NCBI GenBank assembly: GCA_002163135.1
Contig: MAAN01000040.1
Coordinates: 1-54,491, forward strand
Reading direction: 5' to 3'
DNA length: 54,491 bases
Source of the DNA: Alphaproteobacteria bacterium 46_93_T64
Lineage (GTDB): Bacteria > Pseudomonadota > Alphaproteobacteria > Sneathiellales > Sneathiellaceae
Each line of letters opens with the position of its first letter. Position 1 is the first letter of the stretch. Shown piece after piece: positions 10,978 through 48,962 of the stretch. The translations under genes were made by a program, and so were the position numbers. The notes under the pieces were generated by a model. That model had not been told where the DNA came from and ran no database searches. It saw nothing but the letters and a program-made list of their open reading frames with translations.

Positions 10978-11023
10978 TATCAATCAAATGTATGCTGGGA
11001 AAATAAGGCCAGCGTATGGCGGT

Positions 11024-11956: not shown

Positions 11957-11990
11957 CCCTAGCACAAATTCAGCGCTCAAAAAGCGCCGC

Positions 11991-12065
<75 letters not shown>

Positions 12066-32966: not shown

Positions 32967-33326
32967 TTACTCTGGGGCCGGCTGCTGCTTCCCCCTGAGG
33001 CCTTCCATAATTTGTTTGTTTACTGAAATAAGAGGGTCTAGCGAGGCCTCACCCTTCATAGCAGAAACACTGTATTTATTTACCCATATCGCTATGGAAA
33101 GAAGCTGGGCCTTTAATTCCAGCGGGAGCATATTCTCCTCTGATGCAAGGTCAATTTGTAATGTAAGCCATAATTGACGGTTATCCGCTACGGCCTTAAT
33201 TAATGCAATTTGACCTTCTGCCTCAGCTTCTTCCAAAGCTCGAGTGAAGATTGCGAATGCCCGATACTCCGTTTGCTTCGGATTCTCGGTATTCTGATTT
33301 GCCTTTTGGTATGCTGCTACAGACAT
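32967..33326 (-). CDS. flaF: FlaF flagellin regulator (copy 1)
   Basis: A 119-residue FlaF-family protein. SVAAYQKANQNTENPKQTEYRAFAIFTRALEEA and NRQLWLTLQIDLASEENMLPLELKAQLLSIAIWVNKYS are the family blocks. FlaF in Caulobacter and Brucella promotes flagellin synthesis or secretion, acting against FlbT. It lies 66 bases after flagellin 1 on the same strand, so it belongs with that gene. It is the most divergent of the three copies here. Confidence 0.92.
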   Translation of the reverse strand: MSVAAYQKANQNTENPKQTEYRAFAIFTRALEEAEAEGQIALIKAVADNRQLWLTLQIDLASEENMLPLELKAQLLSIAIWVNKYSVSAMKGEASLDPLISVNKQIMEGLRGKQQPAPE

Positions 33327-33392: not shown

Positions 33393-34526
33393 TTATTGGA
33401 AAAGTGAGAGAATTGATTGTGGACGCGCATTGGCAATAGACAAGGACTGGATACCCAGTTGTTCTTTTGTTTGCAACGCTTGTAGTTCAGCACTTGCCTC
33501 AGCAAGGTTTGCATCGACAAGAATACCAAGACCTTCTTGCAACTTATCGACAAGAAGTTGAGTAAACTCAGACTGGCTATCCAGCCGGTTTGAGGCAGTA
33601 CCCAACGTCGTAATAATTTGTCCGACCAAGGTTTCGGCATTATCCAATACAGCGATTGGATTACCTGCGACAGCACCGGCAGTCGCGCCGGTCAATGTTG
33701 TTGTCGCCGTTACAGTGTCACCATGAGAGATTTCAACTACGCCGGTTTCAGTAATATTAACTGCGAAACCTTCAGCGCGCATAACGGTTGCTATGATGCC
33801 AATCATCTGGCCGTTGGATTGTGTGCCTGTATCTACAGTAACAGCGTGAACAAAAATGCCATTAGCTTCATCAACAGCGGAGGTAAGGGCATTGCCATCT
33901 TCGGTAATTTCGAAAGTATGCACATCGCCGCCTGCCAATGTCAGGACAATCGTGTCGTCTTCTGTTACAGAAAATGTATTATCCATAGTTAATGTGGCAG
34001 CCTGTGCTGACAAATCAAAGTTGGATAACCCAAGGGATGCAATCGTTGCATCTTGCGAAAGAACCGTCTGTGTAATACCGCCAAGCGCAGAGAGAACTTC
34101 AAGATCTGTACCACTGCCATCAATCAGGTTCACACCATTAAAAATAGTAGTGTTCACGACAGATGTAATTTGTTCGACCAAGGCATTTGCTTCTTCTTGC
34201 AAGATCGTAATATCCAAACCGTCGTTAAACGATTGGGTGACTTTCTTGTTCAAGTCGATGATGGTTTGCGATATTTGCAAAGCACCAGCATTACCCATAT
34301 TCACTGTTGCCTGACCAAAGGCTAGGCCTTCTTGAATGGCTTTCAGTGATCCAATATCACCGCGCATACCTTGCGCGATTGTAAATGTAGAGGGGTCATC
34401 TTTTGCCTCGGCAACTTTTAGACCCGTTTCGATTTGCCGCTGAACCGAATTCAACGAATTTTGTGTAATTGACAGCGTACGAAGCGCCGCCATTGCACTA
34501 ACATTTGTATTTACGGAAAAAGCCAT
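33393..34526 (-). CDS. Flagellin 1
   Basis: A 377-residue flagellin. The conserved N-terminus MAFSVNTNVSAMAALRTLSITQ and DDPSTFTIAQGMRGDIGSLKAIQEGL, and the C-terminus LVDANLAEASAELQALQTKEQLGIQSLSIANARPQSIL, form the filament core; the Thr/Ser-rich middle (about 150-285) is the exposed domain. It has no Tyr, Cys or Trp. Start placed at ATG 34526 with CAGGAGAAG upstream, after a sigma-54 promoter. It is clearly diverged from flagellins 2 and 3 (for example RPQSILSLFQ against ASQSILGLFR). Confidence 0.96.
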   Translation of the reverse strand: MAFSVNTNVSAMAALRTLSITQNSLNSVQRQIETGLKVAEAKDDPSTFTIAQGMRGDIGSLKAIQEGLAFGQATVNMGNAGALQISQTIIDLNKKVTQSFNDGLDITILQEEANALVEQITSVVNTTIFNGVNLIDGSGTDLEVLSALGGITQTVLSQDATIASLGLSNFDLSAQAATLTMDNTFSVTEDDTIVLTLAGGDVHTFEITEDGNALTSAVDEANGIFVHAVTVDTGTQSNGQMIGIIATVMRAEGFAVNITETGVVEISHGDTVTATTTLTGATAGAVAGNPIAVLDNAETLVGQIITTLGTASNRLDSQSEFTQLLVDKLQEGLGILVDANLAEASAELQALQTKEQLGIQSLSIANARPQSILSLFQ

Positions 34527-34590
34527 TTTCTTCTCCTGTAGCATTTCCAACAAGCAATCATTCGATCGCAAACTCACTCGGACCGGTACC

Positions 34591-34606
34591 TGCAACAGGT
34601 GTGCCA
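34591..34606 (-). promoter_or_regulatory. Sigma-54 promoter of flagellin 1
   Basis: On the minus strand TGGCAC-ACCTG-TTGCA matches the -24/-12 consensus with the required ten bases between GG and GC. The predicted transcript start is about 54 bases before the flagellin ATG. Sigma-54 control of flagellins is established in Caulobacter. Confidence 0.75.
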
Positions 34607-34780
34607 AAACTATGTAGGCCGCAGAAAATAAGGGGTTTCAGGCTATTTGGATAAGAATTGTATAAAATTTTATGGAGAGTCGACGGCGGTGAGGTAGGTA
34701 AAAAATTCTCTATTCGGAATCTCTTGCCCGCCGGTTTTATACGAACAGGGACATAAGTGCCCAAATCGCCATGCAGATTG

Positions 34781-34809
34781 TTGAACTAAGAGCGCCCATC
34801 TGATAAAAG
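34781..34809 (+). promoter_or_regulatory. Candidate sigma-70 promoter of the TPR-sulfotransferase genes
   Basis: TTGAAC (34781-34786) and TAAAAG (34804-34809) are 17 bases apart, about 80 bases before the GTG start at 34889. Read by eye; the divergent gene is flagellin 1. Confidence 0.35.
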
Positions 34810-34888
34810 TGAATCAAGAACAAAGACTTATGGGTAGCTGTAGAGGCTGTCGCTATGTGGCTTTTATATATTTTGAAGAGGGATAGTC

Positions 34889-36484
34889 GTGAACCGGGCT
34901 TCTAGACGTAAACAAGTGACAAAAAATAAAAAGCGTATTAATAGCCGTTCAAAACAACTTCTAAGTCTTGAGGCAACTGGTCTAACTCTTTTTCAATTAA
35001 ATCAGCTTCTACAAATGAAAGACCAGGCGCAACAAGCTTTCGACGAAGAGAAGTATGAGCTTGCTGAGGCCCTTAGTCGAAAGTGCATTGATTTATACCC
35101 AATTTATACAACGGCTTTGACGATGTTGGGGAAAATAGCAATCAGACAAGACAAATACGAACTAGCTGCGACTTTCTACGAAAAATCGTTAAGTATTTTA
35201 CCCGATGTGCATGAGCGACAAACAGCTTATGCATTTGTGCTGACGCATCTGAATAGGCATGAAGAAGCTGTGGAAGCTCTTAAGTGTAGTGTAAGGTTAA
35301 ATCCAAGTTCTTCTGCGAATACGAATGATTTAGCGAATGCATTAAATACAGTTGGACGTCAAAGGGAAGCAGTATTGATTTTTGAAAAGCTCATTAAATC
35401 TGATCCCCTTTTTGGCGAACCCTTTCGAAGTTTAGCGATGCAGCATAAGTTTACCGAGGGCGATAGGTATTCGGAATATTATCAGAAGCTGGCACTTGAT
35501 ATTAACAAAATGACGAGAGTGTTAGATATCAAAGCAGCACATTTTGCGCTAGGGAAATACAATGAGGACTTAAAAGATTTTGAAAAAGGTTTTTTCCACT
35601 TCTTCGAAGCGAATAAGATAATTAGGCAAGATAGACAATACGATATAGATGCAGAGGTTGAAGTAGTAAATTCACTTAAAAAACATTTTCCTAAAAATGG
35701 CCGCTGGGTAAGTAATAATACCAACGGTAGCTCAAGCAATGTGCCCATATTTATCGTAGGAATGCCTCGTTCGGGTACAACATTGACCGAACAGGTATTG
35801 TCTAGTCATCCTGAAATTTTTGGTGCTGGGGAACTCTTAAATTTCTCCAGTTCTACTCGTAATTTTTCTCCTTTCTGGAAAAACGATACGGAGTTATTAC
35901 CTGAAGAGCCTGTTGAAGCAGAAAAAATCAATGACCTGCTGGCGGCAACGGGTCAAAAAATAGTAGAGGAAATTACTTCACTCTCACCTAAGTCTAAGCA
36001 TATTGTCGACAAAATGCCGCTTAATTTCCTGAGTATTGGGCTAATTCATATGATGCTGCCAAAAGCCAAAATAATCCACTGTAAACGAGATCCGATTGAT
36101 ACATGTCTTTCAAATTTCCGACTTCCGTATGAACAAGAGAACTTATATTTCACGGCAGATCTTATGTGTTTGGGCAAATATTATGTAGCTTATGCGGAGT
36201 TAATGGCGCATTGGAACGAGATTTTGCCAGGAAAGATATTGGAGGTAAATTATGAGGATACTGTCGATGATCTTGAAACACAGGCCCGCCGAATTATTGA
36301 TTTTGTTGGTGTCGAGTGGGATGATGCTTGTCTTGATTTTTACAAAACAAAAAGGTCAGTTAATACTGCCAGCGTAAGCCAGGTACGCCAGCCAATTTAT
36401 AAAACGTCAGTTGGGCGGCACGAGCGTTATGGGGATTTGTTAAAGCCGTTGCTTGATGCGCTCGAACCTGTGCTTTCAAAATAA
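34889..36484 (+). CDS. TPR-sulfotransferase fusion protein 1
   Basis: A 531-residue cytosolic protein. A basic N-terminus (NRASRRKQVTKNKKR) is followed by about four or five TPR units (about 45-215) and a Sulfotransfer_3-type domain (about 280-525). The PAPS 5'-phosphosulfate loop is GMPRSGTT (about 291-298) and the 3'-phosphate site is CKRDPIDTCLSNFR (about 396). The C-terminus ends with SVNTASVSQVRQPIY. Such domains transfer sulfate from PAPS to hydroxyl groups of sugars, lipids or Tyr. Start GTG, with GAGGGAT upstream. First of three tandem paralogs, divergent from flagellin 1. Confidence 0.88.
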   Translation: MNRASRRKQVTKNKKRINSRSKQLLSLEATGLTLFQLNQLLQMKDQAQQAFDEEKYELAEALSRKCIDLYPIYTTALTMLGKIAIRQDKYELAATFYEKSLSILPDVHERQTAYAFVLTHLNRHEEAVEALKCSVRLNPSSSANTNDLANALNTVGRQREAVLIFEKLIKSDPLFGEPFRSLAMQHKFTEGDRYSEYYQKLALDINKMTRVLDIKAAHFALGKYNEDLKDFEKGFFHFFEANKIIRQDRQYDIDAEVEVVNSLKKHFPKNGRWVSNNTNGSSSNVPIFIVGMPRSGTTLTEQVLSSHPEIFGAGELLNFSSSTRNFSPFWKNDTELLPEEPVEAEKINDLLAATGQKIVEEITSLSPKSKHIVDKMPLNFLSIGLIHMMLPKAKIIHCKRDPIDTCLSNFRLPYEQENLYFTADLMCLGKYYVAYAELMAHWNEILPGKILEVNYEDTVDDLETQARRIIDFVGVEWDDACLDFYKTKRSVNTASVSQVRQPIYKTSVGRHERYGDLLKPLLDALEPVLSK

Positions 36485-36496
36485 CTGGAGTTTGCC

Positions 36497-38062
36497 TTGA
36501 GCCGTACGTTCAAAAGGAAGCAGGAACTGCGCCTCAAGAAAGAGTCCAAAAAGCTACGCCTCACGACGGCGACAACTGGATTGTCTGTTGATCAATTAAA
36601 GCAGGTGCAGCAACTGATGCTGCTGGCAAATCAGTCGTTTGCAGCACAAAAATATTTTGAAGCAGAAAAATGCTGTCGCATGGCGTTGGCTTTGTATCCA
36701 AAATATGCAGATCCGTATCGCATATTGGCGGGCATTGCATTGCATTTTGACAAATATGTAGAAGCTGTTGAACTATATGAAAAGGCGCTAAAAATTGCAC
36801 CTGACGCCGCTGTTACGCTGAATAACTACAGTGTGGCGTTAAAAGTTCTAAAACGGCATGAAGACGCACTCGCTGCCTTGAATAAATGCCTTCGTTTGAA
36901 CTCCAAATATTTCGATGCACTGAATAATAAAGGAAGTGTTCTGAGTATCTTGGGGCAAATGGATAAATCTCTCCCATTTTACGAAAAAGCCATTGCGATA
37001 AACCCGTTGTATGGGAAAGCATATTACAATATTGCAACGGCTCATAAGTTTAGTAAGGGTGATAAATACTGCGATCTATTCGAAAATGCTGAAAACAATC
37101 TGGAGCAGATGCCTAAAGCCGATCAGATGAATGTGCATTTCGCGTTGGGCAAATATCACGAAGATCTGAAAAATTATAAATCTGGTATTACCCATTACTT
37201 AAAGGGCAACAAGATCAAAAGTGATGGTCTCGACTATACTGTTCAACCGGCAGAAGAGCTTATGTTGGGAATACAAAATATTTTTAATGGAAGTGATTGG
37301 GCGTTAAGAAAAGATGTCGGCAGTCAGTCAGACGTTCCCATCTTCGTCCTTGGTATGCCCAGATCAGGGACGACATTAACGGAGCAAATATTAGCGAGCC
37401 ATTCAGAAGTTTTCGGTGCCGGTGAGCTCAAGCTTCTAGATAAGGTTGCTGGCGGAATGTCTGTGAATAAAGAAGGCTTTTTTCCAACAGAAAAAGTGGA
37501 TTTAGAAGCCTTTGAAAAGAGCATTAAAAAACGGGCTGACATGTTTGTGAATGAATTGCAGGCAATTGATCCGAAATCAAAACATGTCATCGATAAAATG
37601 CCACAAAATTTCAGGTATATTGGGCTTGTTCATGTGTTAATGCCACGGGCCAAAATAATTCACTGTAGAAGAAACCCAATAGATACATGCTTGTCAAACT
37701 TCCGCATCCTGTTTGGCGAAAGAATGGAATACACGTATAAATTGGAGGATATTGGTCGCTACTATCTGGCTTATGATAGAATGATGAAGCACTGGGCCAA
37801 AGTATTGCCAGGCAGGTTTCTTGACTTTCAATATGAAGACGTTGTTGCGGACATAGATACCCAAGCTCGACGCCTTATCGATCATTGCGATCTTGAGTGG
37901 GAAGATGCGTGCCTTGATTTCCATAAAACCAAGAGAAATGTCCATACGGCGAGCACAACGCAAGTGCGTCAGCCTATCTACAACTCATCCGTTGGACGTT
38001 ACGAAAAGTATGGAGATAGCTTGAAGCCATTGTTGGATATTCTGGCTCCGATTTTATCCTAA
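36497..38062 (+). CDS. TPR-sulfotransferase fusion protein 2
   Basis: A 521-residue paralog of its neighbours. The basic start SRTFKRKQELRLKKESK, TPRs at about 45-220 (AQKYFEAEKCCRMALALYP, DKYVEAVELYEKALKIAP), then the sulfotransferase domain with GMPRSGTT (about 285) and CRRNPIDTCLSNFR (about 389). TTG start with GGAG seven bases upstream and only 12 bases after the first paralog, so they are co-transcribed. Both PAPS-binding elements are intact. The paralogs differ most in the TPR region, suggesting different protein partners; this is inference. Confidence 0.88.
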   Translation: MSRTFKRKQELRLKKESKKLRLTTATTGLSVDQLKQVQQLMLLANQSFAAQKYFEAEKCCRMALALYPKYADPYRILAGIALHFDKYVEAVELYEKALKIAPDAAVTLNNYSVALKVLKRHEDALAALNKCLRLNSKYFDALNNKGSVLSILGQMDKSLPFYEKAIAINPLYGKAYYNIATAHKFSKGDKYCDLFENAENNLEQMPKADQMNVHFALGKYHEDLKNYKSGITHYLKGNKIKSDGLDYTVQPAEELMLGIQNIFNGSDWALRKDVGSQSDVPIFVLGMPRSGTTLTEQILASHSEVFGAGELKLLDKVAGGMSVNKEGFFPTEKVDLEAFEKSIKKRADMFVNELQAIDPKSKHVIDKMPQNFRYIGLVHVLMPRAKIIHCRRNPIDTCLSNFRILFGERMEYTYKLEDIGRYYLAYDRMMKHWAKVLPGRFLDFQYEDVVADIDTQARRLIDHCDLEWEDACLDFHKTKRNVHTASTTQVRQPIYNSSVGRYEKYGDSLKPLLDILAPILS

Positions 38063-38159
38063 AACAAATCAAAATTAATAGTCACTATACAATTATGTGC
38101 AATAGTATTCCGTAGGTGAAGACTTCGTAGTTCTCGAAAAGATGTTTAAGGAATAAGTC

Positions 38160-39722
38160 TTGAATAGAGCCCTAAAAAGACGGCAAGAAAAGCACACCCA
38201 AAAAGGCGCTGAAACTCATCAGCTCACAACTAAGAATACAGGGCTTTCTGCCACACGGTTAAAAACACTCTCCGAGCTTATGATCAAAGCTCGAAAAGTG
38301 TATGACGCGGGGGACAAGCCGTTAGCAGAGAAATACTGCATGCAAATTTTGGCTCTTCATCCATCTAATGCGGATGCCTATAATTTATTAGGAGGTGTCG
38401 CATTATCCGCATCGAAATATGAAAAGGCACGACAGCTTTTCGTTAAAGCTATTGAACTCGCTCCAGAGACTGACAGTCTCTACGTTAATTACGGAATAGC
38501 CCTTAAGTTCCTGGAATTGCATGAGCAGTCACTTGCGGTTTTTGATCACGCTCTCAAATTAAGTCCGAAAAATGTAGAGGCTATGAATAATAGGGGAAGT
38601 AGCCTTATCACTCTTGGCCGATTTGACGAAGCTCGGGTTTGTTTTGAAGCGGCTCTTAAGCTCGATCCAACCTATACAAAACCTCTTCTTAATCTTGGAG
38701 GAATGACAAAACACACAAAGGAAAACGAAAATACGAAAACGCTTCTGTCTTATGAAACGCGCCCAAAGAAGCTATCGGTAGATAACGAAATTAATCTGCA
38801 ATTTGCTTTGGGGAAATGTCACGAGGATCTTGGAAACTTTGAAGAGAGTATGTCCCGTTATGTGAAGGCAAATTCACTTAAACGGCAACAGCTGAATTAT
38901 GATATGGCACCGGTGTTGAAGAATTTTTCGGCGTTGAAAAATACGCTTGTAGCGGGGCCTTGGACTGAAGAGGTTGGGGTCGGATGCCCATCTGATGTTC
39001 CAGTATTCATCGTAGGCATGTCGCGATCTGGCAGCACGCTAGTTGAGCAGATACTCGACAGTCATTCTGAAGTTTTTGGTGCGGGCGAATTGACAGTTGC
39101 GGATAAGTCATTTGCAAAATTGAAACTGCTTAAAGGGATAATTCCCACTGATCCTGAAGCGCGGAAAGCAGTCTGTTCAAATTTTACCAAAAGAGGCGAA
39201 TTCTATGTTGAACAGGTTCAAAAACGTGCACCAAATGCGCGCCGAATTGTCGATAAGATGCTGTTCAATTTCAAGCAGGTCGGTTTGCTGTACTTGATTT
39301 TGCCAAATGCCAAAATTATTCACTGCAAGCGGAACCCCATTGATACGTGTTTATCAAATTTTAAAATTCTGTTCGCTAGCAATATGGATTTCACTTACGA
39401 TTTCGAGGAACTTGGAAGGTATTATTTGGCGTATAAGGAATTGATGGATCACTGGGAAACAATATTCCCCAATAAAATCCTGACAGTTGAATATGAAGAC
39501 GTGGTGCAAGATGTCGAAGGGCAAGCTAAGCGCATTATTGAGCATTGTGATCTCTCATGGGAAGAGGGATGCTTGGACTTTTACAAGTCGAAGCGAGCGG
39601 TACACACTGCGAGCGCTACTCAGGTGAGGCAACCAATATACAACAGTTCCGTTGGAAAATGGCAGCGCTACGGTGACGCGATCAATCCTCTTATAGACGC
39701 ATTGAAACCTATTTTGGATTAG
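38160..39722 (+). CDS. TPR-sulfotransferase fusion protein 3
   Basis: A 520-residue paralog. The basic start NRALKRRQEKHTQK and TPRs (about 45-200) are as in the two upstream copies. The PAPS loop is altered to GMSRSGST (about 286), with Ser for Pro and Ser for Thr, while CKRNPIDTCLSNFK (about 388) is kept; a hydroxyl residue remains at each critical position, so activity is plausible. TTG start with AAGGA upstream. Its last 14 bases overlap the end of the convergent fourth copy. Confidence 0.87.
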   Translation: MNRALKRRQEKHTQKGAETHQLTTKNTGLSATRLKTLSELMIKARKVYDAGDKPLAEKYCMQILALHPSNADAYNLLGGVALSASKYEKARQLFVKAIELAPETDSLYVNYGIALKFLELHEQSLAVFDHALKLSPKNVEAMNNRGSSLITLGRFDEARVCFEAALKLDPTYTKPLLNLGGMTKHTKENENTKTLLSYETRPKKLSVDNEINLQFALGKCHEDLGNFEESMSRYVKANSLKRQQLNYDMAPVLKNFSALKNTLVAGPWTEEVGVGCPSDVPVFIVGMSRSGSTLVEQILDSHSEVFGAGELTVADKSFAKLKLLKGIIPTDPEARKAVCSNFTKRGEFYVEQVQKRAPNARRIVDKMLFNFKQVGLLYLILPNAKIIHCKRNPIDTCLSNFKILFASNMDFTYDFEELGRYYLAYKELMDHWETIFPNKILTVEYEDVVQDVEGQAKRIIEHCDLSWEEGCLDFYKSKRAVHTASATQVRQPIYNSSVGKWQRYGDAINPLIDALKPILD

Positions 39723-41295
39723 AGGTCTTTCGGGAATTCAGAGCCTCGGTAAGAGGGACAAGTTGTTGCTCATATTGCTTCCATGCGTCTACAGAGCTTT
39801 TATAAATTGGTTGCCTGACTTGATCTGAGCTGGCCGTTCTGACAACGCGTTGGGTTTTATGGAAATTGAGGCAATCATCGTGCCAGTCAACACCACAATA
39901 TTCCAGAAGCCGCCTTGTTTGGGCTTCCGTGTTATCAACCATTTCTTCGTATTGCACATCCAGAATGTCACCAGGCATTACGGTGTGCCAGTGATCCATT
40001 AAATCCAGATAACCATTGTAAAACTGTCCGAGTTCAGTCAATTTATAAGCAAATTTTTGATTTCCAACAAAGATTTTCTTATAAATTGAGAGACATGAAT
40101 CTTCAGGCTGTCGTCGGCAATGAATGATTTTTGCATCCGGGAATAATATTTTAATCAACCCTACATACAAAAAATTCCTAGGCATTTTGTCTGTTATTAA
40201 TTTGGCTTTTGTCGGAAGCGCTTTTAGATGTCCTGAATAGAATTTTGCAAATTCTTCAAAATCTTGAGACTGAAGGTTTGGCAATACATCCCGAAGATGG
40301 ATTAATTTCCCTTGCTTGACCTTATGATGGACGAGCAGTTCAAAAAAGTAGAGTTCTCCTGCCCCATATATCTTTGGATGGCTTGCAAGAATTTGTTCAA
40401 CAAGGGACGTCCCAGAGCGGGGCATGCCAAGAATAAAAATTGGGGAAGGAGAGGATTTTGTCTCCCTTTTATTTTCCTCGATATACTCTGCCGTTATGGA
40501 GCGTTTCAGATCTTCCATTAAGGATAAATCTACTTCGACATCATAGTCGTATGTTGTCCGGTGAAGATCGTTTCCTTCTTTAAGGTACTTCCATGAAGTC
40601 GCCGTATCTTTGAGGTCGTTATATGCTTTTGCAGCACCAAATAGAAGCTGTACGCGATCGTCCACATCTTTGACTTTATCGCTTCGCAACAAATCCTCGA
40701 GAGCCGTGATGTCCGAATTTACTGTTTTTAGTTTTTGGCTTTCAACAATATTTCGGTAGGCTTTTGCATAAGTTGGATCCACGTCTATAGCTCGCCTATA
40801 ACAGGCGATGGCTTCGTCCTTCATGCCTTTTTCAAGATAGGCATTTCCTAAGTTGAAATGTCCTAGGTGATAATCAGGTCGGATTTGTATTGCTTTCTTT
40901 TGCTCCCTTATGCCTTTATCTACATCGCCAAGGGCGACATACATATTACCCAAGTTACTTCGGGCGGGAGCACTTTCTGGGTTGATTTTAACCGCGCGCC
41001 GAAACGCAAGAGCGGCGTTTTTATTTTCTCCCATTTCGCGATGAATATTACCAAGATTATTATAATAATAGGATTTTTTGTTGTTTAGTTTGATCGCTTT
41101 TTCAACCAATGGAAGGGCAATTTGGTTCTTCCCTGTTTGATGGTAAAGGGTGCCAAGAAGATTGTAAGCATCAGAGGTTTTGGGATAGTGGGTGAGGATT
41201 GTATTTAGGACCATCTCTGCTTTTACAAACTGCTCAGCATTCATTAGATCCACTGCTTGTTTAAGTGCTTGATTTAAGGCTTGGTCTTTTTTCAC
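39709..41295 (-). CDS. TPR-sulfotransferase fusion protein 4
   Basis: A 528-residue relative on the opposite strand. It lacks the basic N-terminus of copies 1-3 and has about six TPR units (about 10-190; for example NKNAALAFRRAVKINPESAPARS). The sulfotransferase domain has GMPRSGTSLVEQILASHP (about 291) and CRRQPEDSCLSIYK (about 394). It starts with GTG overlapping the stop of the TPR-methyltransferase gene by four bases (GTGA), so the two are translationally coupled and probably act together. It may be the last gene of the flagellin 2 transcript. Confidence 0.88.
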   Translation of the reverse strand: MKKDQALNQALKQAVDLMNAEQFVKAEMVLNTILTHYPKTSDAYNLLGTLYHQTGKNQIALPLVEKAIKLNNKKSYYYNNLGNIHREMGENKNAALAFRRAVKINPESAPARSNLGNMYVALGDVDKGIREQKKAIQIRPDYHLGHFNLGNAYLEKGMKDEAIACYRRAIDVDPTYAKAYRNIVESQKLKTVNSDITALEDLLRSDKVKDVDDRVQLLFGAAKAYNDLKDTATSWKYLKEGNDLHRTTYDYDVEVDLSLMEDLKRSITAEYIEENKRETKSSPSPIFILGMPRSGTSLVEQILASHPKIYGAGELYFFELLVHHKVKQGKLIHLRDVLPNLQSQDFEEFAKFYSGHLKALPTKAKLITDKMPRNFLYVGLIKILFPDAKIIHCRRQPEDSCLSIYKKIFVGNQKFAYKLTELGQFYNGYLDLMDHWHTVMPGDILDVQYEEMVDNTEAQTRRLLEYCGVDWHDDCLNFHKTQRVVRTASSDQVRQPIYKSSVDAWKQYEQQLVPLTEALNSRKTSNPK

Positions 41296-43541
41296 GCTAG
41301 TAAATCTCTCTTTTTACGGACCCAGAATTTATACATTGTCGCAAATACGCCTGGATTTTCTTCTTCAAAGATAGCCCAGTTATCCAAGTTCGTTCGAGTT
41401 GTATCGTCTGGGAACCTATCTTCGTATTTTGAAACATACATTTCTGCATCCAAATTGAAACCCAAAAATTCCAAGCCTAGATGATCCAGCGCTGACATAA
41501 TGCGCTGAACTGTGAAGCGATGCTCTTGCACGTGGAATATGAGATCACGACAAGCGGAGAGCGTATAGAAGTCATTGTGATTGATAATTCGTTTAGCCGG
41601 ATCTTGTTTCTCCAACGCCATCAGCATTTTTCTGCAGTTTCTTATCTCATCTATTTTATCGCCAAAATCGTTTTTCTGAATAAATTCCCGACAGGCGACA
41701 ACGTCTTGCCGGCCCAGTTCGCTATACAGGCCGATGTTCATGTAGCCGTCGTCCTCCAACAGATTACACAGAACTTTCCATCCGGCTTCTGGGTCGTTCA
41801 TGTGATGCAATACCCCGGCGCATTCGATAATGTGAAATCTACGGTCTAATGCGCCCAATTCCATAATGTCGGCTTGCCCGAATTCGATATTTTTAACATT
41901 GATTTCTTTTGCTTTACGCATGGCATAGCTGATGCTCGCGAGACTAAGGTCAATGGCTAAGATGTTTGCTTCCGGATAGGCTTTGGCCGATGAAATTGGT
42001 TGGCGTCCGGTTCCGCACCCTGCAATTAGGACATTTGGTGTCTTGGGAAAGCTTGGTTGTTTGCCTTTCAGGATCGGTAGTTTGCTTACCAAGTCCATAG
42101 CGTAAGAAGAGATACCCGTCGGTGGTAAATTCTGCCAGCGGGGGTAGGGGTTTTCTTCATATTGTTCGCGAACATTGAGAGAGATGGCATCGTTAATTGT
42201 TGTGATTTGTTTTATCTTTTCGTGGCTCGCCAATTCGATGTTTGGTTCAGTGACTTGAATTCTAATCAATTCCGCCATTTCTGGCTGGCTCTTGAAGATC
42301 TGTTTTCCGGTAAGTTCTTTGGCAAAGGCATGTTTATGGCATTGTCGATAACAGGAAAGGATCAGATACCGTAGAGTGATTTCATCTGGAGTGCCTTTTG
42401 CACCAGCTTCAAAATACTCAATTAAGGAGCCAACAGCGCGGCTTTCAAACTCGTTTTCCTGTAAGAGAAATTCAGTAAAGAAGCTGTACTGAGCAAGAGG
42501 AACAAGAAACGTGCGTAGGAGGTCGCAAAGCGGCTTTTCCAGTTTTGCACCACTTACAATAGCTGCCAATGTCAATCGCCGGAATAGCTCCAGCATTTTT
42601 TCTATTTCCGGATCAACAATCCTCATGTTCTTAAGAGCCATCAAAAGAACCTTGTCGGAAAGCGCTTTTATGACTTCGCCAAGATCGAGTTGAAGATCTT
42701 GATTGGTTTGAACTGAATAGGTGAGGGCTGGCAGATGTTTTCTAAATGCCGGTCGAGATCTTATGTATTGGCGAACAATCCTGTTTAAATAATTCCACTG
42801 AATTGCCTTACTGGAAAGCAGTAAAAGCAAGTCATTTCCCATGTCATCTATGTTGGGGACTTTCGGAAGATTTGGGAATATTCGGGAGTATGCTCGTAAA
42901 TTTGTTTCGTTTTTTGGGTCCAGATAAACAGCTTTGCGGTAATGTTTGAAAGCTTCTTCTGCGGAGTCCTTCTTCAGGATATCTCCCATTTTTACATGGA
43001 TTTCTGAATTTTCTGGGTGAAGGATCAGGTTTCTTTTGAATAACTCAAGCGCTTCGTCTTGTTTTTTGTCGCGGACCAAGAGATCTCCGAGATTTAGCAA
43101 AACACCTATATCCTTGGGAGCAAGGGACTGGGCTTTCCACAGGTCATCTAGAGCCGGCGCATTGTTCCCTTGCTTTAGATAGGCGAGCCCTCGGTTGTTA
43201 ATAGCATTTGCATTGCCGGGATCCAGTTCAATGGATGTGTCAAAAAAACGAATGGCTTTTTCTAAATCGTCTTGCACAGAGTAGGCAGAAGCCGCAGCCA
43301 TAAATAGTGTTGAATTTTGCTTGTCTGGCTTTGGGGTGAGGCTTATAGATTTTTCATAAAGCCTGATAGATGTTTCTACATCTCCGGCGTTAAAGGCGGA
43401 AATTCCAGCCTGAAAATATAAGTAACCGTCCGTCCAACCGCTGGAAAGAAGCGAGGAGATTTGCTTCCGTGCATCTTTGATCCGCTTGTTTTTATAATGC
43501 TTGATCGCAGTGCCGGTTATTTTTAGAACTTTTTGCTGCAT
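41292..43541 (-). CDS. TPR-methyltransferase fusion protein
   Basis: A 749-residue protein. TPRs occupy about residues 1-235 (GDVETSIRLYEKSISLTP, DLEKAIRFFDTSIELDPGNANAINNRG), a helical region of unknown type about 236-470, and a class I SAM methyltransferase about 480-690: motif I NVLIAGCGTGRQ (about 500-511), post-I ILAIDLS, then FHIIECAGVLHHM. It has the same modular plan as the TPR-sulfotransferases. It is 72 bases after the DUF1217 gene and overlaps the fourth sulfotransferase. The substrate is unknown; flagellin or its glycan is the contextual guess. Confidence 0.83.
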   Translation of the reverse strand: MQQKVLKITGTAIKHYKNKRIKDARKQISSLLSSGWTDGYLYFQAGISAFNAGDVETSIRLYEKSISLTPKPDKQNSTLFMAAASAYSVQDDLEKAIRFFDTSIELDPGNANAINNRGLAYLKQGNNAPALDDLWKAQSLAPKDIGVLLNLGDLLVRDKKQDEALELFKRNLILHPENSEIHVKMGDILKKDSAEEAFKHYRKAVYLDPKNETNLRAYSRIFPNLPKVPNIDDMGNDLLLLLSSKAIQWNYLNRIVRQYIRSRPAFRKHLPALTYSVQTNQDLQLDLGEVIKALSDKVLLMALKNMRIVDPEIEKMLELFRRLTLAAIVSGAKLEKPLCDLLRTFLVPLAQYSFFTEFLLQENEFESRAVGSLIEYFEAGAKGTPDEITLRYLILSCYRQCHKHAFAKELTGKQIFKSQPEMAELIRIQVTEPNIELASHEKIKQITTINDAISLNVREQYEENPYPRWQNLPPTGISSYAMDLVSKLPILKGKQPSFPKTPNVLIAGCGTGRQPISSAKAYPEANILAIDLSLASISYAMRKAKEINVKNIEFGQADIMELGALDRRFHIIECAGVLHHMNDPEAGWKVLCNLLEDDGYMNIGLYSELGRQDVVACREFIQKNDFGDKIDEIRNCRKMLMALEKQDPAKRIINHNDFYTLSACRDLIFHVQEHRFTVQRIMSALDHLGLEFLGFNLDAEMYVSKYEDRFPDDTTRTNLDNWAIFEEENPGVFATMYKFWVRKKRDLLA

Positions 43542-43613
43542 AGAACGTTGCCTGAAGTGCCAGTTATAGGCTCATCATAAGTAGCTATGGTTAACAATAA
43601 TCTAACAGGGAGA

Positions 43614-44396
43614 TTAAACCGATAAGTTCAAGGAAATGGGCATAGGACCCACTGTATCGCCGGTTGAAAGAGGTTGGAACAGGCTGATCAAGGGATTCGC
43701 AGTCGGATCGGTGTTGTTGATTTCTGTCATAATAAGAAACCTCTCAACCATTTTATCGATTTTTTCAGGGTCTTTGAAGTCCTCGATATCGACTTCCTTA
43801 ATCAGTCTCGCTTTTTGTTGCTCGTAATCTAAAGACAAGAAGCTTTCGGGAAGGCCAAGGCCAACACGAACGACTTGCATAAGCGATTTGTCTGCCAATA
43901 TTTGAGGGACTTCTTCTACATCGCCGGCAAGCCGTTTAAAGTACATGGCTTCGCGAATACCTTCAGCATTTTGACCTTCAAATTTTTCAAACTCGTTGGT
44001 TTTGTAGCCTTCAAGTATGGCGTTCACGTTGGCTTCATTTAGAAAAAAATCTGGATCCTGATTTAGGCCGTACATGGCTTTGGATAGCTTGGTCCAGCGA
44101 GGTTCCACAAGCTTATTGACAAGGCTGTCATCGTCTTCGGGATCTTCGGATAGCATTTTCTCGACAAACGCATATTTGTCGAGCTCACTTTCAAGCTGGA
44201 AAGCAGATAGAGTAACACTTAGCAGCGTTCGGTTTTTCATAAGATCATCAACGGATTTAACATTAACGATTTCGCTTTTGAATTTTTCTATATCGCGGGC
44301 AGTGGTAGGTTGAGCCTCAAACATTTTCATGTGAGCCTCTGTCTGGCTATCCGCCAGTTTGTACCATAAAAATGAACTTGTGCCCGAGAGCTGCAT
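43614..44396 (-). CDS. DUF1217 flagellar protein
   Basis: A 260-residue protein with the DUF1217 domain, found in alphaproteobacterial flagellar clusters. GTSSFLWYKLADSQTEAHMKMFEAQPTTARDIEKFKSEI, then helical segments with LNEANVNAILEGYKTNEFEKFEG and DKMVERFLIMTEINN fit the family. Its precise role is not established, though rhizobial relatives are linked to flagellar function. It begins 23 bases after flaF copy 2. Confidence 0.82.
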   Translation of the reverse strand: MQLSGTSSFLWYKLADSQTEAHMKMFEAQPTTARDIEKFKSEIVNVKSVDDLMKNRTLLSVTLSAFQLESELDKYAFVEKMLSEDPEDDDSLVNKLVEPRWTKLSKAMYGLNQDPDFFLNEANVNAILEGYKTNEFEKFEGQNAEGIREAMYFKRLAGDVEEVPQILADKSLMQVVRVGLGLPESFLSLDYEQQKARLIKEVDIEDFKDPEKIDKMVERFLIMTEINNTDPTANPLISLFQPLSTGDTVGPMPISLNLSV

Positions 44397-44419
44397 AATT
44401 GCTACCTAAATTGTCCATG

Positions 44420-44830
44420 CTAAATGGACATTTGTTTAAACTGGCTTTGGGTCTCAACTTTCGGCGGCGTCCGTCCTACTTTTGTCGCCTCAGTCAAACC
44501 CTGCATGATTTGACGGTTTACCGAAATGAGTGGTTCTAAATCCGCAGTATTACGTAAGGCCGTCGCTGTAAACTTATTAACCCATATTGCCAACGAAATT
44601 AAACCGGCTTTTGTTTCAATGTCCAGTTTATTTTCTGCTGAAGCTAAGTCAGTTCTAATAGTCAACCATAGCTGGCTATTTCTAAATAAAGCGTTAATGC
44701 GGGTGCCAGCCGGAATGTCGTCCGTATTTGCAGTTTCCAATTCGCGTGTGATTTCTGCAAATAGTCTATATTCGGTAAGTGCTGGTTTTTCTACCGACAG
44801 ATTGGCTTTTTTGTAAGCTTCAAAATACAT
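44420..44830 (-). CDS. flaF: FlaF flagellin regulator (copy 2)
   Basis: A 136-residue FlaF. EAYKKANLSVEKPALTEYRLFAEITRELETA and NSQLWLTIRTDLASAENKLDIETKAGLISLAIWVNKFT are the family blocks; the C-terminal tail is longer than that of copy 1. It follows flagellin 2 after a terminator-like hairpin that probably lets only part of the transcription through. It is closer to copy 3 than to copy 1. Confidence 0.92.
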   Translation of the reverse strand: MYFEAYKKANLSVEKPALTEYRLFAEITRELETANTDDIPAGTRINALFRNSQLWLTIRTDLASAENKLDIETKAGLISLAIWVNKFTATALRNTADLEPLISVNRQIMQGLTEATKVGRTPPKVETQSQFKQMSI

Positions 44831-44898
44831 GAGAGAGTTCCATTTCCTGTGGAATTAATCGGAATTCGTTTGAAGAGTTTACGAATATGAGAAATGAA

Positions 44899-44924
44899 AA
44901 GGCGGCCATATCTAAGGCCGCCTT
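44899..44924 (-). terminator. Hairpin after flagellin 2
   Basis: A 9-bp stem (44924-44916 with 44907-44899 on the minus strand), 15 bases after the flagellin stop and before flaF copy 2. The following sequence is only moderately T-rich, so it may stabilise the mRNA or terminate partly. Confidence 0.6.
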
Positions 44925-44938
44925 CATCACTTTTCCGA

Positions 44939-46099
44939 TTAACGGAACAGACCCAGAATAGACTGAGACGCAGCGTTTGCAATTGAGAGAGACTGGATGC
45001 CCAGCTGCTCTTTCGTTTGCTCTGATTGCAACTTGGCAGAAACTTCAGCCAAGTTAGCATCAACCAGAATGCCAAGACCTTCTTCAAGAGTATCGGACAG
45101 AACCTGCGTAAATTCGGCCTGACTTTCTAATCTGTTGGAGAAGGTACCCAGTGAAGTCAAGATACCACCAATTGCTGTTTTCGCACCATCAAGTGCAGCA
45201 ACAGCACCACCGCCAGCGGTGTTGTTGACGGTTATACCACCGGCAGCGACACCTGTAACGTCAACCGTTACTGCCTGGCCGGCCGCAAAGATTGAAATTG
45301 TTCCGTCGTCGGCTATATCAACAGTCAAGCCTTGTTCCCGCATAACGTCAGCAAGTTGACCGACATGTGTGCCAGTTGAGGCACCACCTTGGTCAATAGT
45401 GACTGCGTGAACAAATACACCGTTTGCTTCATCAACAGATTCTGTAAGAGTTTGACCGCCAGCGTTATCAACAAATTCGAAAATATGTGTTTCACCGCCG
45501 TAGGCCACTGCAATATGATCACTGGTCGCAGCAAACGCTGCAGTATTATCCAATGTTAATTCTGCATGCGTACCTGCTAGATCCAGACCTGCAATACCCA
45601 GGCCGGTTGTGCTGGCGTCAACGGCAGTAAAAGAAACGGTTGAGCCACTTAGGCCCGTTACAACATTCAATGAAGCTGTTGTCGTTCCGTTATCCAAAAC
45701 ATTGATGCCGTTAAATTCAGTAGAAGCAACAATTGTTTCAATCTGTGCGAGCATTTCATTGGCTTCATCTTGCAGAATAGAAGTATCAAGGCCTTCATTG
45801 AGGGCTTGGTTTACTTTACTTTGCAAATCGGTCAGCTGATCAGAAATCGCTGTTGCACCTGACATTGCCATACTCATAGAAGCAGAACCGAAGTTCAAAC
45901 CTTCTTGAATTGCTTTCAGGCCACCAATATCACCGCGCATACCTTGTGAAATCACGAAAGTCGACGGATCGTCTGTTGCACTACCAACTTTCAAGCCAGA
46001 TTGAATCTGGTTCTGAATGGTAGAAAGGTTGCTTTGAGTGGAAGAGAGTGACCGCAGTGCGGCCATAGCATTGGCATTCGTGTTTACTGAAAAAGCCAT
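44939..46099 (-). CDS. Flagellin 2
   Basis: A 386-residue flagellin. N-terminus MAFSVNTNANAMAALRSLSSTQ and C-terminus EQTKEQLGIQSLSIANAASQSILGLFR are almost the same as in flagellin 3; the Thr/Gly/Ala-rich middle (about 150-300) differs. It has one Tyr (VAYGGETHIFEF) and no Cys. The ATG follows GAGGA and the conserved structured leader described at 46103-46190. Its 3' hairpin is also shared with flagellin 3, so the whole unit was duplicated. Confidence 0.97.
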   Translation of the reverse strand: MAFSVNTNANAMAALRSLSSTQSNLSTIQNQIQSGLKVGSATDDPSTFVISQGMRGDIGGLKAIQEGLNFGSASMSMAMSGATAISDQLTDLQSKVNQALNEGLDTSILQDEANEMLAQIETIVASTEFNGINVLDNGTTTASLNVVTGLSGSTVSFTAVDASTTGLGIAGLDLAGTHAELTLDNTAAFAATSDHIAVAYGGETHIFEFVDNAGGQTLTESVDEANGVFVHAVTIDQGGASTGTHVGQLADVMREQGLTVDIADDGTISIFAAGQAVTVDVTGVAAGGITVNNTAGGGAVAALDGAKTAIGGILTSLGTFSNRLESQAEFTQVLSDTLEEGLGILVDANLAEVSAKLQSEQTKEQLGIQSLSIANAASQSILGLFR

Positions 46100-46102
46100 T
46101 AT

Positions 46103-46190
46103 ATAATCCTCATTCTAGAGTTGTCGCTATGCGACGTACGCAGCTCGTTTGAGCCTCGGTTCACTTTGAAACCGTGATTGGACTATCGAC
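46103..46190 (-). promoter_or_regulatory. Structured leader RNA of flagellin 2
   Basis: Read toward the gene, the leader holds three hairpins. The first is CGGTT/AACCG around TCAAAGTG, the second GGCTC/GAGCT around AAAC (one G-U), and the third GTCGC/GCGAC around ATA. The shine-dalgarno GAGGA follows the third. The same three occur before flagellin 3. An upstream element GTCGATAG is also shared. FlbT of Caulobacter binds flagellin leaders, so this is a plausible target. Confidence 0.7.
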
Positions 46191-46500
46191 TTGAAGAGCT
46201 TAACAACTTCTTAATCGGTTGTATTTGCGGATCCAATTAGAATGAGGTTTTCATATATTATTAGTCTAACTATTTGATAATAAACATATAAAAATATTTA
46301 TTATTTTTTTATATCTCGCTATAATTGTATTTAAGTAATTTATTAAATTAGGAATAAAATAATATAATTGCCGCTACGGTATATTCTAAGGAGAAATGGC
46401 AGAATTTGGAGGATTTGGAGATGATTTCAATTTTTCCAATCTATTTTCCATCTTCCGAATCAAGTGCTAACGTATCAATACAGAAAGCTATTGATTGCCC
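46191..46500. other. AT-rich gap before flagellin 2 leader
   Basis: About 300 very AT-rich bases between the flaF copy 3 terminator and the flagellin 2 leader. No ORF with a plausible start, and no sigma-54 GG-N10-GC site was seen. The flagellin 2 promoter should be here. Confidence 0.4.
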
Positions 46501-46530
46501 AAAAAAAATAGGGCCCCGTTTAAGGGCCCT
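46501..46530 (-). terminator. Intrinsic terminator after flaF copy 3
   Basis: On the minus strand AGGGCCC and GGGCCCT form a 7-bp GC-rich stem around TTAAACG, followed by A and eight T residues. It ends the flagellin 3-flaF unit, so flagellin 2 needs its own promoter. Confidence 0.88.
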
Positions 46531-46567
46531 GTTTATAAAATGAATTTTGTGTTGAAAAGAGGCCTGT

Positions 46568-46987
46568 TCAGGCTACCGCTTGCTTGAAGTCCTGTGTTTC
46601 AGCGTTTTGATGCGACGGCTCTTTAGTGCGGGCGTTGCGGTTTGATTGGGACAGGCCCTGCATGATGTCTTTGTTCACATCGATTAAGGGACCGAGATCG
46701 ATTTCGCCGCGAATGGCTTCTGCGCTCAGTTTCTCAACCCAGATAGCGAGAGAGATGAGACCGGCTTTTATATGGACATCCAATTTATTTTGTTCAGAAA
46801 TTAGATCCGTCTTTAACGTGAGCCATAATTGTGAATTTCTGAATGCGGCGCGAATGCGATCCGTTGGGGCTGCGTTGCTAGACATTGCTTGCTCTAGTTC
46901 GCGTGTGATCTCCGCGAATAAGCGATATTCAGTTTGTGAAGGTTTTTCTGTCGCCGAATTGGCTCTTTTGTACGCGTCATACTGCAT
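46568..46987 (-). CDS. flaF: FlaF flagellin regulator (copy 3)
   Basis: A 139-residue FlaF. YDAYKRANSATEKPSQTEYRLFAEITRELEQA and NSQLWLTLKTDLISEQNKLDVHIKAGLISLAIWVEKLS are the family blocks. GGAG lies before the ATG. It follows flagellin 3 after a hairpin and precedes a strong terminator. Together with copy 2 it shows that the flagellin-flaF pair duplicated as a unit. Confidence 0.92.
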   Translation of the reverse strand: MQYDAYKRANSATEKPSQTEYRLFAEITRELEQAMSSNAAPTDRIRAAFRNSQLWLTLKTDLISEQNKLDVHIKAGLISLAIWVEKLSAEAIRGEIDLGPLIDVNKDIMQGLSQSNRNARTKEPSHQNAETQDFKQAVA

Positions 46988-47056
46988 TGACCTACTCCTG
47001 TTCCTTGAAAGTTAATCAGGATTGAAATGAAATATTTCCAAAAGTTGGAAAAGAGA

Positions 47057-47082
47057 AGGCGACCTTTATCAAGGCCGCCTTC
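47057..47082 (-). terminator. Hairpin after flagellin 3
   Basis: A 9-bp stem with one G-U pair, at the same place and with nearly the same sequence as the hairpin after flagellin 2 (the change GGCC to GGTC keeps pairing). It is 14 bases after the stop and before flaF copy 3. Confidence 0.6.
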
Positions 47083-47095
47083 ATCATTTGGCTGA

Positions 47096-48244
47096 TTAAC
47101 GGAATAGACCCAGGATAGACTGAGACGCTGCGTTTGCAATCGAGAGAGACTGGATGCCCAGCTGCTCTTTCGTTTGCTCTGATTGCAACTTGGCTGAAAC
47201 TTCTGCCAAGTTTGCGTCAACCAGAATACCAAGACCTTCTTCAAGAGTATCTGACAGAGTTTGAGTAAAATCTGCCTGACTTTCTAGCCTGTTGGAGAAG
47301 GTACCAAGGGTGGTCAATATCGTACCAATCGCCGTCTTGGCTGCGTCAAGCACCGTGGTCGCGGCACCGCCGACATTATCTGTGGCGGTAATTGTACCGG
47401 CCGCAAGTGTCGATGTCGCCGTTGTTGCAACACCGGCCGCAAAGACAGATATTGTGCCGTCTTCGGCAATATCAACGGAGAGGCCTGAATCCCGCATAAC
47501 GGCTGCCAAGTCACCAACATGTTCACCAGTTGAAGCATTAGAGTCGATCGTTACAACATGAACAAACGTACCATTTGCTTCGTCAACTGAGGAGGCTGGT
47601 GTGCCACCATTTTCGTCAAGGAATTCGAAAATGTGTGTTTCGGTACCATACGCAATTGTCACTGTATCCGCAGCTGCAAAGACAGCTGTATTATCCAGTG
47701 TCATCTCTGAATGGACACCCGCAAGATCAAGAGCTGTTAAGCCAAGACCAGCTACCGTTGCATCGACCGCAGTAAGTGTGACGGTTGCACCGCCAAGACC
47801 TGTTAGGACGTTCAAGTCAGCTGTCGTTGCACCATTATCAATTAGGTTGATGCTGTTAAACTCGGTGGAGCCCACGATAGTCGTGATCTGTGCGATCATT
47901 TCATCAGCTTCTGTTTGCAGAACAGCCGTATCAAGTCCTTCATTCAGGGCTTGAGTAACTTTTGTCTGTAAGTCAGTGAGCTGATCAGAGATAGCAGTTG
48001 CACCAGAGAGGGCCATACTTACCGTCGCTGAACCGAAGTTCAAACCTTCTTGAACTGCTTTTAGAGCACCAATGTCACCGCGCATCCCTTGTGAAATCAC
48101 GAAGGTAGACGGATCGTCCGTCGCCCCACCAACTTTCAAGCCAGATTGAATCTGGTTTTGAATGTCGCTCAAAGTGTTTTGAGTTGAAGAGAGTGACCGC
48201 AGGGCAGCCATTGCATTGGCATTAGTGTTTACTGAAAAAGCCAT
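47096..48244 (-). CDS. Flagellin 3
   Basis: A 382-residue flagellin, very close to flagellin 2 in the first 140 and last 80 residues and diverged between. Core blocks are MAFSVNTNANAMAALRSLSSTQNTLSDIQNQIQSGLKVG and DDPSTFVISQGMRGDIGALKAVQEGLNFGS. One Tyr is in the middle domain. The variable part is rich in Ala, Thr and Val, giving possible O-glycosylation sites. It has the conserved leader and its own flaF downstream. Confidence 0.97.
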   Translation of the reverse strand: MAFSVNTNANAMAALRSLSSTQNTLSDIQNQIQSGLKVGGATDDPSTFVISQGMRGDIGALKAVQEGLNFGSATVSMALSGATAISDQLTDLQTKVTQALNEGLDTAVLQTEADEMIAQITTIVGSTEFNSINLIDNGATTADLNVLTGLGGATVTLTAVDATVAGLGLTALDLAGVHSEMTLDNTAVFAAADTVTIAYGTETHIFEFLDENGGTPASSVDEANGTFVHVVTIDSNASTGEHVGDLAAVMRDSGLSVDIAEDGTISVFAAGVATTATSTLAAGTITATDNVGGAATTVLDAAKTAIGTILTTLGTFSNRLESQADFTQTLSDTLEEGLGILVDANLAEVSAKLQSEQTKEQLGIQSLSIANAASQSILGLFR

Positions 48245-48245
48245 A

Positions 48246-48340
48246 ATATATAATCCTCATTCTAGAGTTGTCGCTATGCGACGGACACGGCTCGTTTGAG
48301 CCTTGGCTTACTTTGAAGCCGAGGACCACTATCGACAAAA
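48246..48340 (-). promoter_or_regulatory. Structured leader RNA of flagellin 3
   Basis: The three hairpins of the flagellin 2 leader recur. In the first, GGCTT pairs with AAGCC, where flagellin 2 has GGTTT with gAACC: a T-A pair has become C-G with both sides changed, while the loop CAAAGT is kept. The second is a full GGCTC/GAGCC and the third GTCGC/GCGAC is identical. GTCGATAG lies upstream, as for flagellin 2. GAGGA precedes the ATG. Confidence 0.72.
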
Positions 48341-48344
48341 AGTG

Positions 48345-48880
48345 TTAACATATAATAAAACACTAATTAATTGATTTGCTAATTAATTATATCTTATAAT
48401 TAGTGTATTATATATTTACGTATATATAATAAGTGTCAAATCACGACAAATGCGCCGTTTTTTGACGTTAGGATATTCTGCCAAAGGGCTCCAATTTTTG
48501 AAAAGAAACGGAACAATTAAGAGAGTCTGTTGGAAAAATTCGGATCTTCAGGACGGATTCGACAAAACTGATCGTCAATTAATCCAGAAATCGCTGATCA
48601 CGTGATGAGGTCTTTCTTAAGAGGGATGATCCGGGCGATTCTCATGTGTAAATGCTTATATTTGAGAATGGCAATTTTCAGAACCCAAAATTGCTTCAGA
48701 ATAGGTGCCAGTTTTACCTGAATTCGCTCCTTATATATATAAAGTAGAGTTGAGTGACTGATGCATACCCTATAAGGGCGATAAAATTTGAAGATAAATT
48801 CGATAAAATTGTAAAAAAAAGTATCTTTCACCCATTTGAGGTATGACAACGTTTTTCCCAATCACTACATTCACCGACAA
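48345..48880. other. AT-rich divergent intergenic region
   Basis: Over 500 bases separate the flagellin 3 leader from the RTX gene leader. The first part is extremely AT-rich and presumably carries the flagellin promoter. I see no gene: an 87-codon minus-strand frame at 48598-48861 has no good start site and is hydrophobic low-complexity. No clear sigma-54 site. Confidence 0.4.
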
Positions 48881-48888
48881 TCATATGT

Positions 48889-48942
48889 GCGCTTTTTAAT
48901 GAGCGCCGACAAATTTTGGGATTGTCGCCTGCTTAATAGGCG
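48889..48942 (+). promoter_or_regulatory. Hairpin series in the RTX gene leader
   Basis: Three successive inverted repeats precede the RTX start: GCGC/GCGC (48889-48906), CGACAA/TTGTCG (48907-48927) and CGCCT/AGGCG (48926-48942). The last two share two bases, so they could exclude each other. GGGAAAG follows, about ten bases before the ATG. Confidence 0.4.
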
Positions 48943-48962
48943 GATTGGGAAAGATAGATATT

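Follow-up and report, generated by a model that had tools for sequence, protein, structure and literature searches.

The closest described system to the locus presented here is FlmG of Caulobacter crescentus, a flagellin O-glycosyltransferase in which an N-terminal tetratricopeptide repeat (TPR) part is followed by a C-terminal GT-B domain. The available part of the FlmG paper reports that the TPR part binds flagellins, and that the glycosyltransferase part on its own does not bind flagellins and fails to restore their modification. Human O-GlcNAc transferase (OGT), which modifies proteins, likewise combines a TPR superhelix with a transferase domain. Here we analyze contig MAAN01000040.1 of Alphaproteobacteria bacterium 46_93_T64, a whole contig of 54,491 nucleotides (the window), in which four TPR-sulfotransferases (ST1 to ST4) and one TPR-methyltransferase (MT) are encoded among the flagellin genes. 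We propose that these enzymes modify flagellin before export in an FlmG-like, TPR-guided manner, with exchangeable sulfotransferase (ST) and MT modules in one slot of the locus. Like FlmG, they combine an N-terminal TPR part with a C-terminal transferase and are tied to flagellins; unlike FlmG, they end in a Sulfotransfer_3 or Methyltransf_25 domain instead of GT-B, and several of them lie between flagellin genes. FlmG works with pseudaminic acid made by NeuB, whereas NeuB was not found in this genome (hereafter G000; genus Sneathiella; a 4.0 Mb draft assembly, 99.85% complete). From OGT they differ in both catalytic domain and donor. No bacterial report of TPR-sulfotransferases or of sulfated flagellin was found in the open PubMed Central subset, which does not cover most subscription papers and preprints; one paper on an archaeal archaellin came up.

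Pfam searches and a check of the open reading frames (ORFs) bore out the gene content given in a preliminary description of the window, namely three flagellin/flaF pairs and a DUF1217 gene flanking four TPR-STs and one TPR-MT. Each ST carries Sulfotransfer_3 (PF13469) in addition to TPR families: ST1 (34889..36484, + strand, E 2.8e-48), ST2 (36497..38062, +, 5.4e-48), ST3 (38160..39722, +, 1.7e-46) and ST4 (39709..41295, −, 1.7e-46). ST3 and ST4 are convergent and overlap by 14 bases. The MT (41292..43541, −) consists of TPRs and Methyltransf_25 (1.2e-14) and overlaps ST4 by four bases, as had been described. The only three Flagellin_N matches of the G000 assembly all lie in this locus. Flagellin 1 (33393..34526, −; PF00669/PF00700) is a long form of 377 aa with an ATG start and no Tyr, and its 109-aa insert contains neither Lys nor Tyr; flagellin 2 (44939..46099, −; 386 aa, assigned with Pfam) and flagellin 3 (47096..48244, −; 382 aa; PF00669 8.4e-19, PF00700 2.5e-10) have inserts of 116 and 112 aa, each with no Lys and one Tyr.

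For comparison, 60 relatives, 24 of them Sneathiella, were searched for Sulfotransfer_3 and Flagellin_N, and their flagellin loci were compared by gene content. The gene order YbhB-AccD-flaF1-flagellin 1-slot-DUF1217-(flaF2)-flagellin 2-flbT is kept in the Sneathiella loci with small changes, where the slot is the gap between flagellin 1 and DUF1217 (43614..44396, −, in G000; PF06748 1.1e-37), a boundary gene found in long- and short-flagellin loci alike. The arrangement recurs in related genomes and is thus not due to chance. In 10/10 genomes with long flagellins (about 377-399 aa when complete) the slot is filled with ST and/or MT genes: G004, G011, G012 and G023 have the MT only, G005 has a pair of STs, G009 a pair of STs plus a broken one, G015 and G017 each the MT with a single ST, and G000 the MT with four STs, while G007 has nothing but a broken ST where its contig ends. 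It is empty, at 200-244 bp, in 10/10 scorable genomes with short flagellins of about 266-271 aa (G001, G002, G003, G008, G014 and G018-G022). These counts leave out four of the 24 genomes, two in which no flagellin was found (G006, G010) and two with contig ends (G013, G016). The long flagellins owe their greater length to a single additional domain of 109-131 aa. In an AccD tree of 20 rows, from which G011 is missing because its locus has no AccD gene, a single branch (support 100/100) separates the long-flagellin genomes from the short-flagellin ones.

The intact slot STs fall into two clades, type A (ST1, ST2, ST3, one ST each from G005 and G009, and that of G015; SH-aLRT 99) and type B (ST4, the second STs of G005 and G009, and that of G017; SH-aLRT 97), and type B clusters with non-flagellin STs in a quick tree (89). 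With the MT as a third enzyme beside ST type A and ST type B, the slot has been filled more than once, by three enzyme lineages; this adds to the weight of the association, which is therefore not explained by one hitch-hiking gene. The MT genes (7/7) and type-B ST genes (4/4) are co-directional with flagellin 2 and DUF1217, and the type-A genes (6/6) are antiparallel to them. Across the ten intact slot STs and the seven MTs, the main motifs show little or no variation.

A profile of the ST domain searched against the PDB retrieved protein-tyrosine sulfotransferases (TPSTs) first (8w5z at 6.3e-15; TPST2 and TPST1 at about 1e-12). The AlphaFold model of ST2 (pLDDT 91.9, pTM 0.87) matched OGT first, via its TPRs, in a fold search, and TPSTs followed from rank 37 with target TM scores of 0.57-0.69. 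TPST1, TPST2 and tick TPST, which share the Sulfotransfer_3 domain, are thus the nearest solved relatives by both sequence and fold. Four motif residues are retained in the alignment with TPST (Arg in PRSGTT, Glu in GAGEL, Lys in DKMP, Ser in TAS), and the corresponding R14, E35, K92 and S211 are invariant in 10/10 slot STs. We take these four to be the catalytic residues of TPST. The slot STs accordingly contain the 5'-phosphosulfate loop and the Glu/Lys/Ser positions of Sulfotransfer_3/TPST-like sulfotransferases that depend on 3'-phosphoadenosine 5'-phosphosulfate (PAPS). They differ from TPSTs in being bacterial and TPR-fused, and in that Tyr does not appear to be the general acceptor in flagellin. 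Adenylylsulfate kinase, examined as evidence of a PAPS supply, was also considered as a marker of ST genomes and proved not to discriminate, with full matches in 22/24 Sneathiella genomes and weak partial ones in G006 and G010, which are 65-66% complete.

The MT contains a class I S-adenosylmethionine (SAM) domain related to protein-lysine methyltransferases (PKMTs). Its profile retrieved Rv2067c first (9e-24), then an uncharacterized methyltransferase (3e-16) and Rickettsia PKMT2 and PKMT1 (1.3e-11 and 3.5e-10), with a sugar O-methyltransferase weaker at 4.6e-6; Rv2067c was also the first fold match of the MT model (pLDDT 92.7). Both models show a TPR superhelix, nearest to OGT, fused to a protein-sulfotransferase-like or lysine-methyltransferase-like domain, and by profile and predicted fold the two domains point to protein targets. 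Methylation of flagellin is not new: a paper on Aeromonas caviae reportedly deals with it, and Salmonella is mentioned in this context in the available part of PMC11784438. The same portion states that KmtA methylates the autotransporter AtaA, and that PKMTs and KmtA act on surface proteins; the accessible text of PMC10739865 identifies 8HKR as Rv2067c and describes a trough like that of PKMT1/2. The nearest solved relatives of the MT domain include Rickettsia PKMT1/2 (acting on OmpB), KmtA and Rv2067c. Unlike them, the slot MT is TPR-fused and lies in a flagellin locus, and the G000 flagellin inserts lack Lys.

A scan of 84,980 genomes for the MT, with the best 80 loci kept, gave 77 loci outside Sneathiella, and in seven of these 77 the flanking sequence retrieved contains a gene for a flagellin or a flagellin-like protein: four from Thalassospira (two of them near-identical), one from an alphaproteobacterial metagenome-assembled genome (MAG; L118, OFTM257), one from Gallionella (L101) and one from Gallionellales (L131). 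The Thalassospira order is FlgK, FlgL-like, FliW, MT, flagellin, FlaG, FliD, FliS, so that the MT is followed by a flagellin and preceded by FliW or another flagellin; in L089 a true flagellin lies on either side. Flagellin-HMM matches upstream of FliW (at about 8.0 kb in L067, L072 and L125, and 6.8 kb in L089) were rejected as FlgL-like, and an NCBIfam scan of these genes in L067, L089 and L125 placed them below the cut-offs for FlgL and 'flagellin' alike. The L118 neighbor has no Pfam match at 1e-6 but matches Flagellin_N at 4e-6; its match to NCBIfam flagellin models, at 4e-65, stays under the cut-offs of these models. In an MT tree the Thalassospira enzymes belong to another clade than those of Sneathiella, and L118 falls into one 11-row group with those of Sneathiella (89). 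The L131 MT is clustered with FliS, FliF, FliG and FliM, and this flagellar cluster also has an OGT-like TPR-GT41 gene adjoining a flagellin, so that it carries two TPR-transferase genes (613-3531 and 9431-12280). In the Gallionella MAG, a 1276-aa flagellin (4956-8786) lies 0.8 kb from the TPR-MT. No paper combining Thalassospira, flagellin and methyltransferase was found in the open PubMed Central subset.

A mechanism is proposed where the slot enzymes are cytoplasmic, use their N-terminal TPR superhelix to recognize flagellin and modify the protein prior to export, as FlmG does with other chemistry. The ST domains would transfer sulfate from PAPS and the MT a methyl group from SAM. Flagellin may thus be the substrate and the TPR part its dock, and the properties of the filament may be affected. 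The probable ST target is the extra domain of the long flagellins, where Ser/Thr could be modified directly or via a small O-linked group; the long inserts contain 13-22 Thr. Sulfation of Tyr had been considered impossible for flagellin 1, which holds for this Tyr-free protein and extends to the ST-bearing G017, where neither flagellin 1 nor the insert of a partial flagellin 2 has Tyr. It would be possible only on flagellins 2 and 3 of G000, which have one Tyr each, and judged by these residue counts Tyr does not appear to be the general acceptor. (Whole-protein counts for G009 flagellin 1 are inflated by a mis-called upstream start.) By kinship the MT would most likely methylate Lys, which in G000 could occur only in the flagellin core, with its 6-7 Lys, and not in the insert. 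The idea of TPR-docked addition of sulfate and methyl groups to flagellin, put forward in the preliminary description, thus gains from the association of such fusions with flagellins in all ten long-flagellin Sneathiella genomes and from TPR-MTs in other flagellar clusters; this support does not extend to a glycan acceptor or to TPR-STs outside the genus.

Several observations weigh against flagellin as the client. The slot ST domain was matched at 1e-15 in 104/385 genomes of the class, three of them Sneathiella, and the region around the top match was retrieved for 40 of the remaining 101 genomes; neither a flagellin nor any of 12 other flagellar proteins was found there (0/40). The TPR-STs as a family therefore do not appear to be flagellin enzymes, and the suggested search for TPR-STs beside flagellins succeeded in Sneathiella and not in these 40 regions. 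Strong MT matches occur in 60/385 class genomes, five of them Sneathiella; in a sample made up of the top match from each of 40 of the remaining 55, the MT adjoins a flagellin in one (L229) of the 37 loci with a called MT (L215, L217 and L227, with no MT ORF, being left out), and the called ORF of L229 lacks TPRs. The TPR-MTs thus look like a broad family that was recruited to flagellins in several lineages rather than a flagellin family. The TPR parts of MT, ST type A and ST type B are no closer to each other than to background TPR-STs, and show no shared flagellin-binding signature. Before the enzymes scanned, sigma54-type sites were found only with two or three mismatches (two cases) and otherwise not at all, which speaks against a promoter shared by flagellin 1 and the enzymes. 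Repeated gain of cassette and long flagellin was rejected on the single bipartition of the AccD tree, and their co-variation therefore counts, on this tree, as one evolutionary event. The absence of Lys from the G000 inserts is awkward for a lysine methyltransferase acting there. Finally, a giant RTX protein is encoded beside the locus in 8/8 long-flagellin loci for which this stretch was retrieved, those of G015 and G017 running into contig edges. The giant shares its branch of appearance with the cassette and co-varies with it as strictly as the flagellin domain does. Taking these points together with the evidence above, we give TPR-guided modification of flagellin a probability of roughly 0.57, slightly reduced because the L229 MT ORF has no TPR and L118 groups with Sneathiella.

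The same client is retained if flagellin is first glycosylated by some cytoplasmic glycosyltransferase and the ST and MT then decorate the glycan, which we consider unlikely. The long inserts are Thr-rich and poor in Lys and Tyr, G017 has an ST although Tyr is missing from its flagellin 1 and from the insert of flagellin 2, and the Gallionellales cluster L131 pairs a TPR-GT41 with a TPR-MT. A Ser/Thr-linked glycan had been named as the likelier acceptor, a view that is weakened by the lack of a NeuB, Maf or GT41 match in G000, other glycosyltransferase families not having been searched. Across the 24 Sneathiella genomes NeuB occurs in two, Maf in one and GT41 in none, and none of the ten filled slots contains a recognized glycosyltransferase gene. 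The ST and MT domains are, moreover, nearest to protein-modifying enzymes. A TPR-GT9 protein of G011 was rejected as glycan machinery for G000, where it has no counterpart; in G011 (L019, 7987-14047) it overlaps an unlinked 740-aa TPR-ST beside an 849-aa autotransporter.

The neighbors of TPR-STs outside the slot suggest another kind of client. Among ORFs of at least 300 aa, a C-terminal signature of outer-membrane (OM) proteins was found in 16/82 of those no more than two ORFs from an ST vs 1/158 of those farther away, covering 13/38 loci (Fisher p 1.5e-7, which is post hoc, as the signature was set after the neighbors had been read). The two loci in which no ST ORF was called (L148, L154) were left out of this comparison and kept in the 0/40 flagellin count. 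No such excess is seen at MT loci, with 3/125 near and 7/319 far. Ten neighbors, chosen for their OM-protein look, were submitted to Pfam and gave five autotransporters (three from one bacterial family), two TonB-receptor plug matches, one porin and two without a match; a 2522-aa neighbor in L172 whose C-terminus had suggested an autotransporter gave no match to Pfam at 0.01. In G000, the three other long TPR-STs each lie directly 3' of an RTX-repeat gene of about 900 aa on the same strand (3/3): L182 10264-13014 with 8302-10254, L183 3764-6532 with 6627-8537, and L184 10965-13805 with 8958-10886. These neighborhoods suggest that TPR-STs adjoin the exported protein that they modify. Tentatively, and at somewhat less than even odds, TPR-STs could form a general bacterial system for the sulfation of surface proteins ahead of export, with each enzyme encoded next to the protein it serves (autotransporters, other OM proteins, RTX proteins). 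In Sneathiella this system would have been recruited at least twice into the exchangeable slot of the flagellin locus, so that flagella would be sulfated and, in some species, methylated as well.

If TPR-STs adjoin exported proteins, the client could also be the giant RTX/BapA-like surface protein past the last flagellin (48945..54491, +; BapA-like prefix, PPC domain, 34 stretches of PF00353, PF22783 at 1.7e-6; open at the contig end), and the place of the enzymes among flagellin genes would be incidental. Such a role would fit the RTX-paired STs of G000 and the absence of the giant from the stretches fetched for the ten short-flagellin genomes, which were not searched for it genome-wide. However, the giant is on the opposite strand and three to five genes from the slot, whereas the RTX-paired STs are immediately downstream of their partners and co-directional; these STs are also distant from those of the slot, at 122-171 bits vs 284-341 bits for the 40 class STs fetched. 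The giant accompanies MT-only and ST-only slots alike, and the Thalassospira TPR-MTs lie in flagellar operons. We rank flagellin above the giant because the enzymes are encoded among the flagellin genes, with MT and ST4 on the strand of flagellin 2 and following it, because the giant is on the other strand and because TPR-MTs occur elsewhere in flagellar clusters; the giant as client is unlikely, yet it is the main rival to flagellin. That the enzymes act on lipid, polysaccharide or another secreted protein, with the slot a tolerated insertion site, is improbable: slot content does turn over and both families are broad and mostly unlinked to flagella, but three lineages of one design occupy one site only where flagellins have the extra domain, and their motifs are conserved.

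The remaining features of the window complete the locus. The bounds of the flagellin island had been drawn at 33393..48244; the gene set was right, but flaF1 (32967..33326, −; PF07309 1.9e-30), encoding the flagellin secretion/regulatory protein FlaF, falls just left of this start. The other copies are flaF2 (44420..44830, −; PF07309 1.1e-25) and flaF3 (46568..46987, −; 5.9e-26). The gene flbT, which adjoins flagellin 2 in other Sneathiella loci, was not recognizable by tblastn in the window, including 48245-48944. A sigma54-type site without mismatches (34606, −) precedes flagellin 1 and is kept in 10/10 loci scanned; none was found before flagellins 2 and 3 of the window. A gene of about 579 aa beside several loci, initially an FlmG-like candidate, proved to encode a thiamine pyrophosphate enzyme in both copies that were checked; in G022, a gene of similar size encodes an alkyl-sulfatase-like protein.

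If the proposal is correct, the FlmG principle, in which a TPR dock picks the flagellin and a C-terminal enzyme picks the chemistry, would extend to a plug-in slot, and bacteria would use TPR-guided protein sulfotransferases to decorate their surface proteins, flagella among them. A simple rule would follow, that the client of a TPR-transferase is the product of the adjoining surface-protein gene. The Sneathiella genomes offer a natural set for this, with ST only, MT only, both or neither, and the swimming filament of Sneathiella would be chemically decorated in an unusual way.

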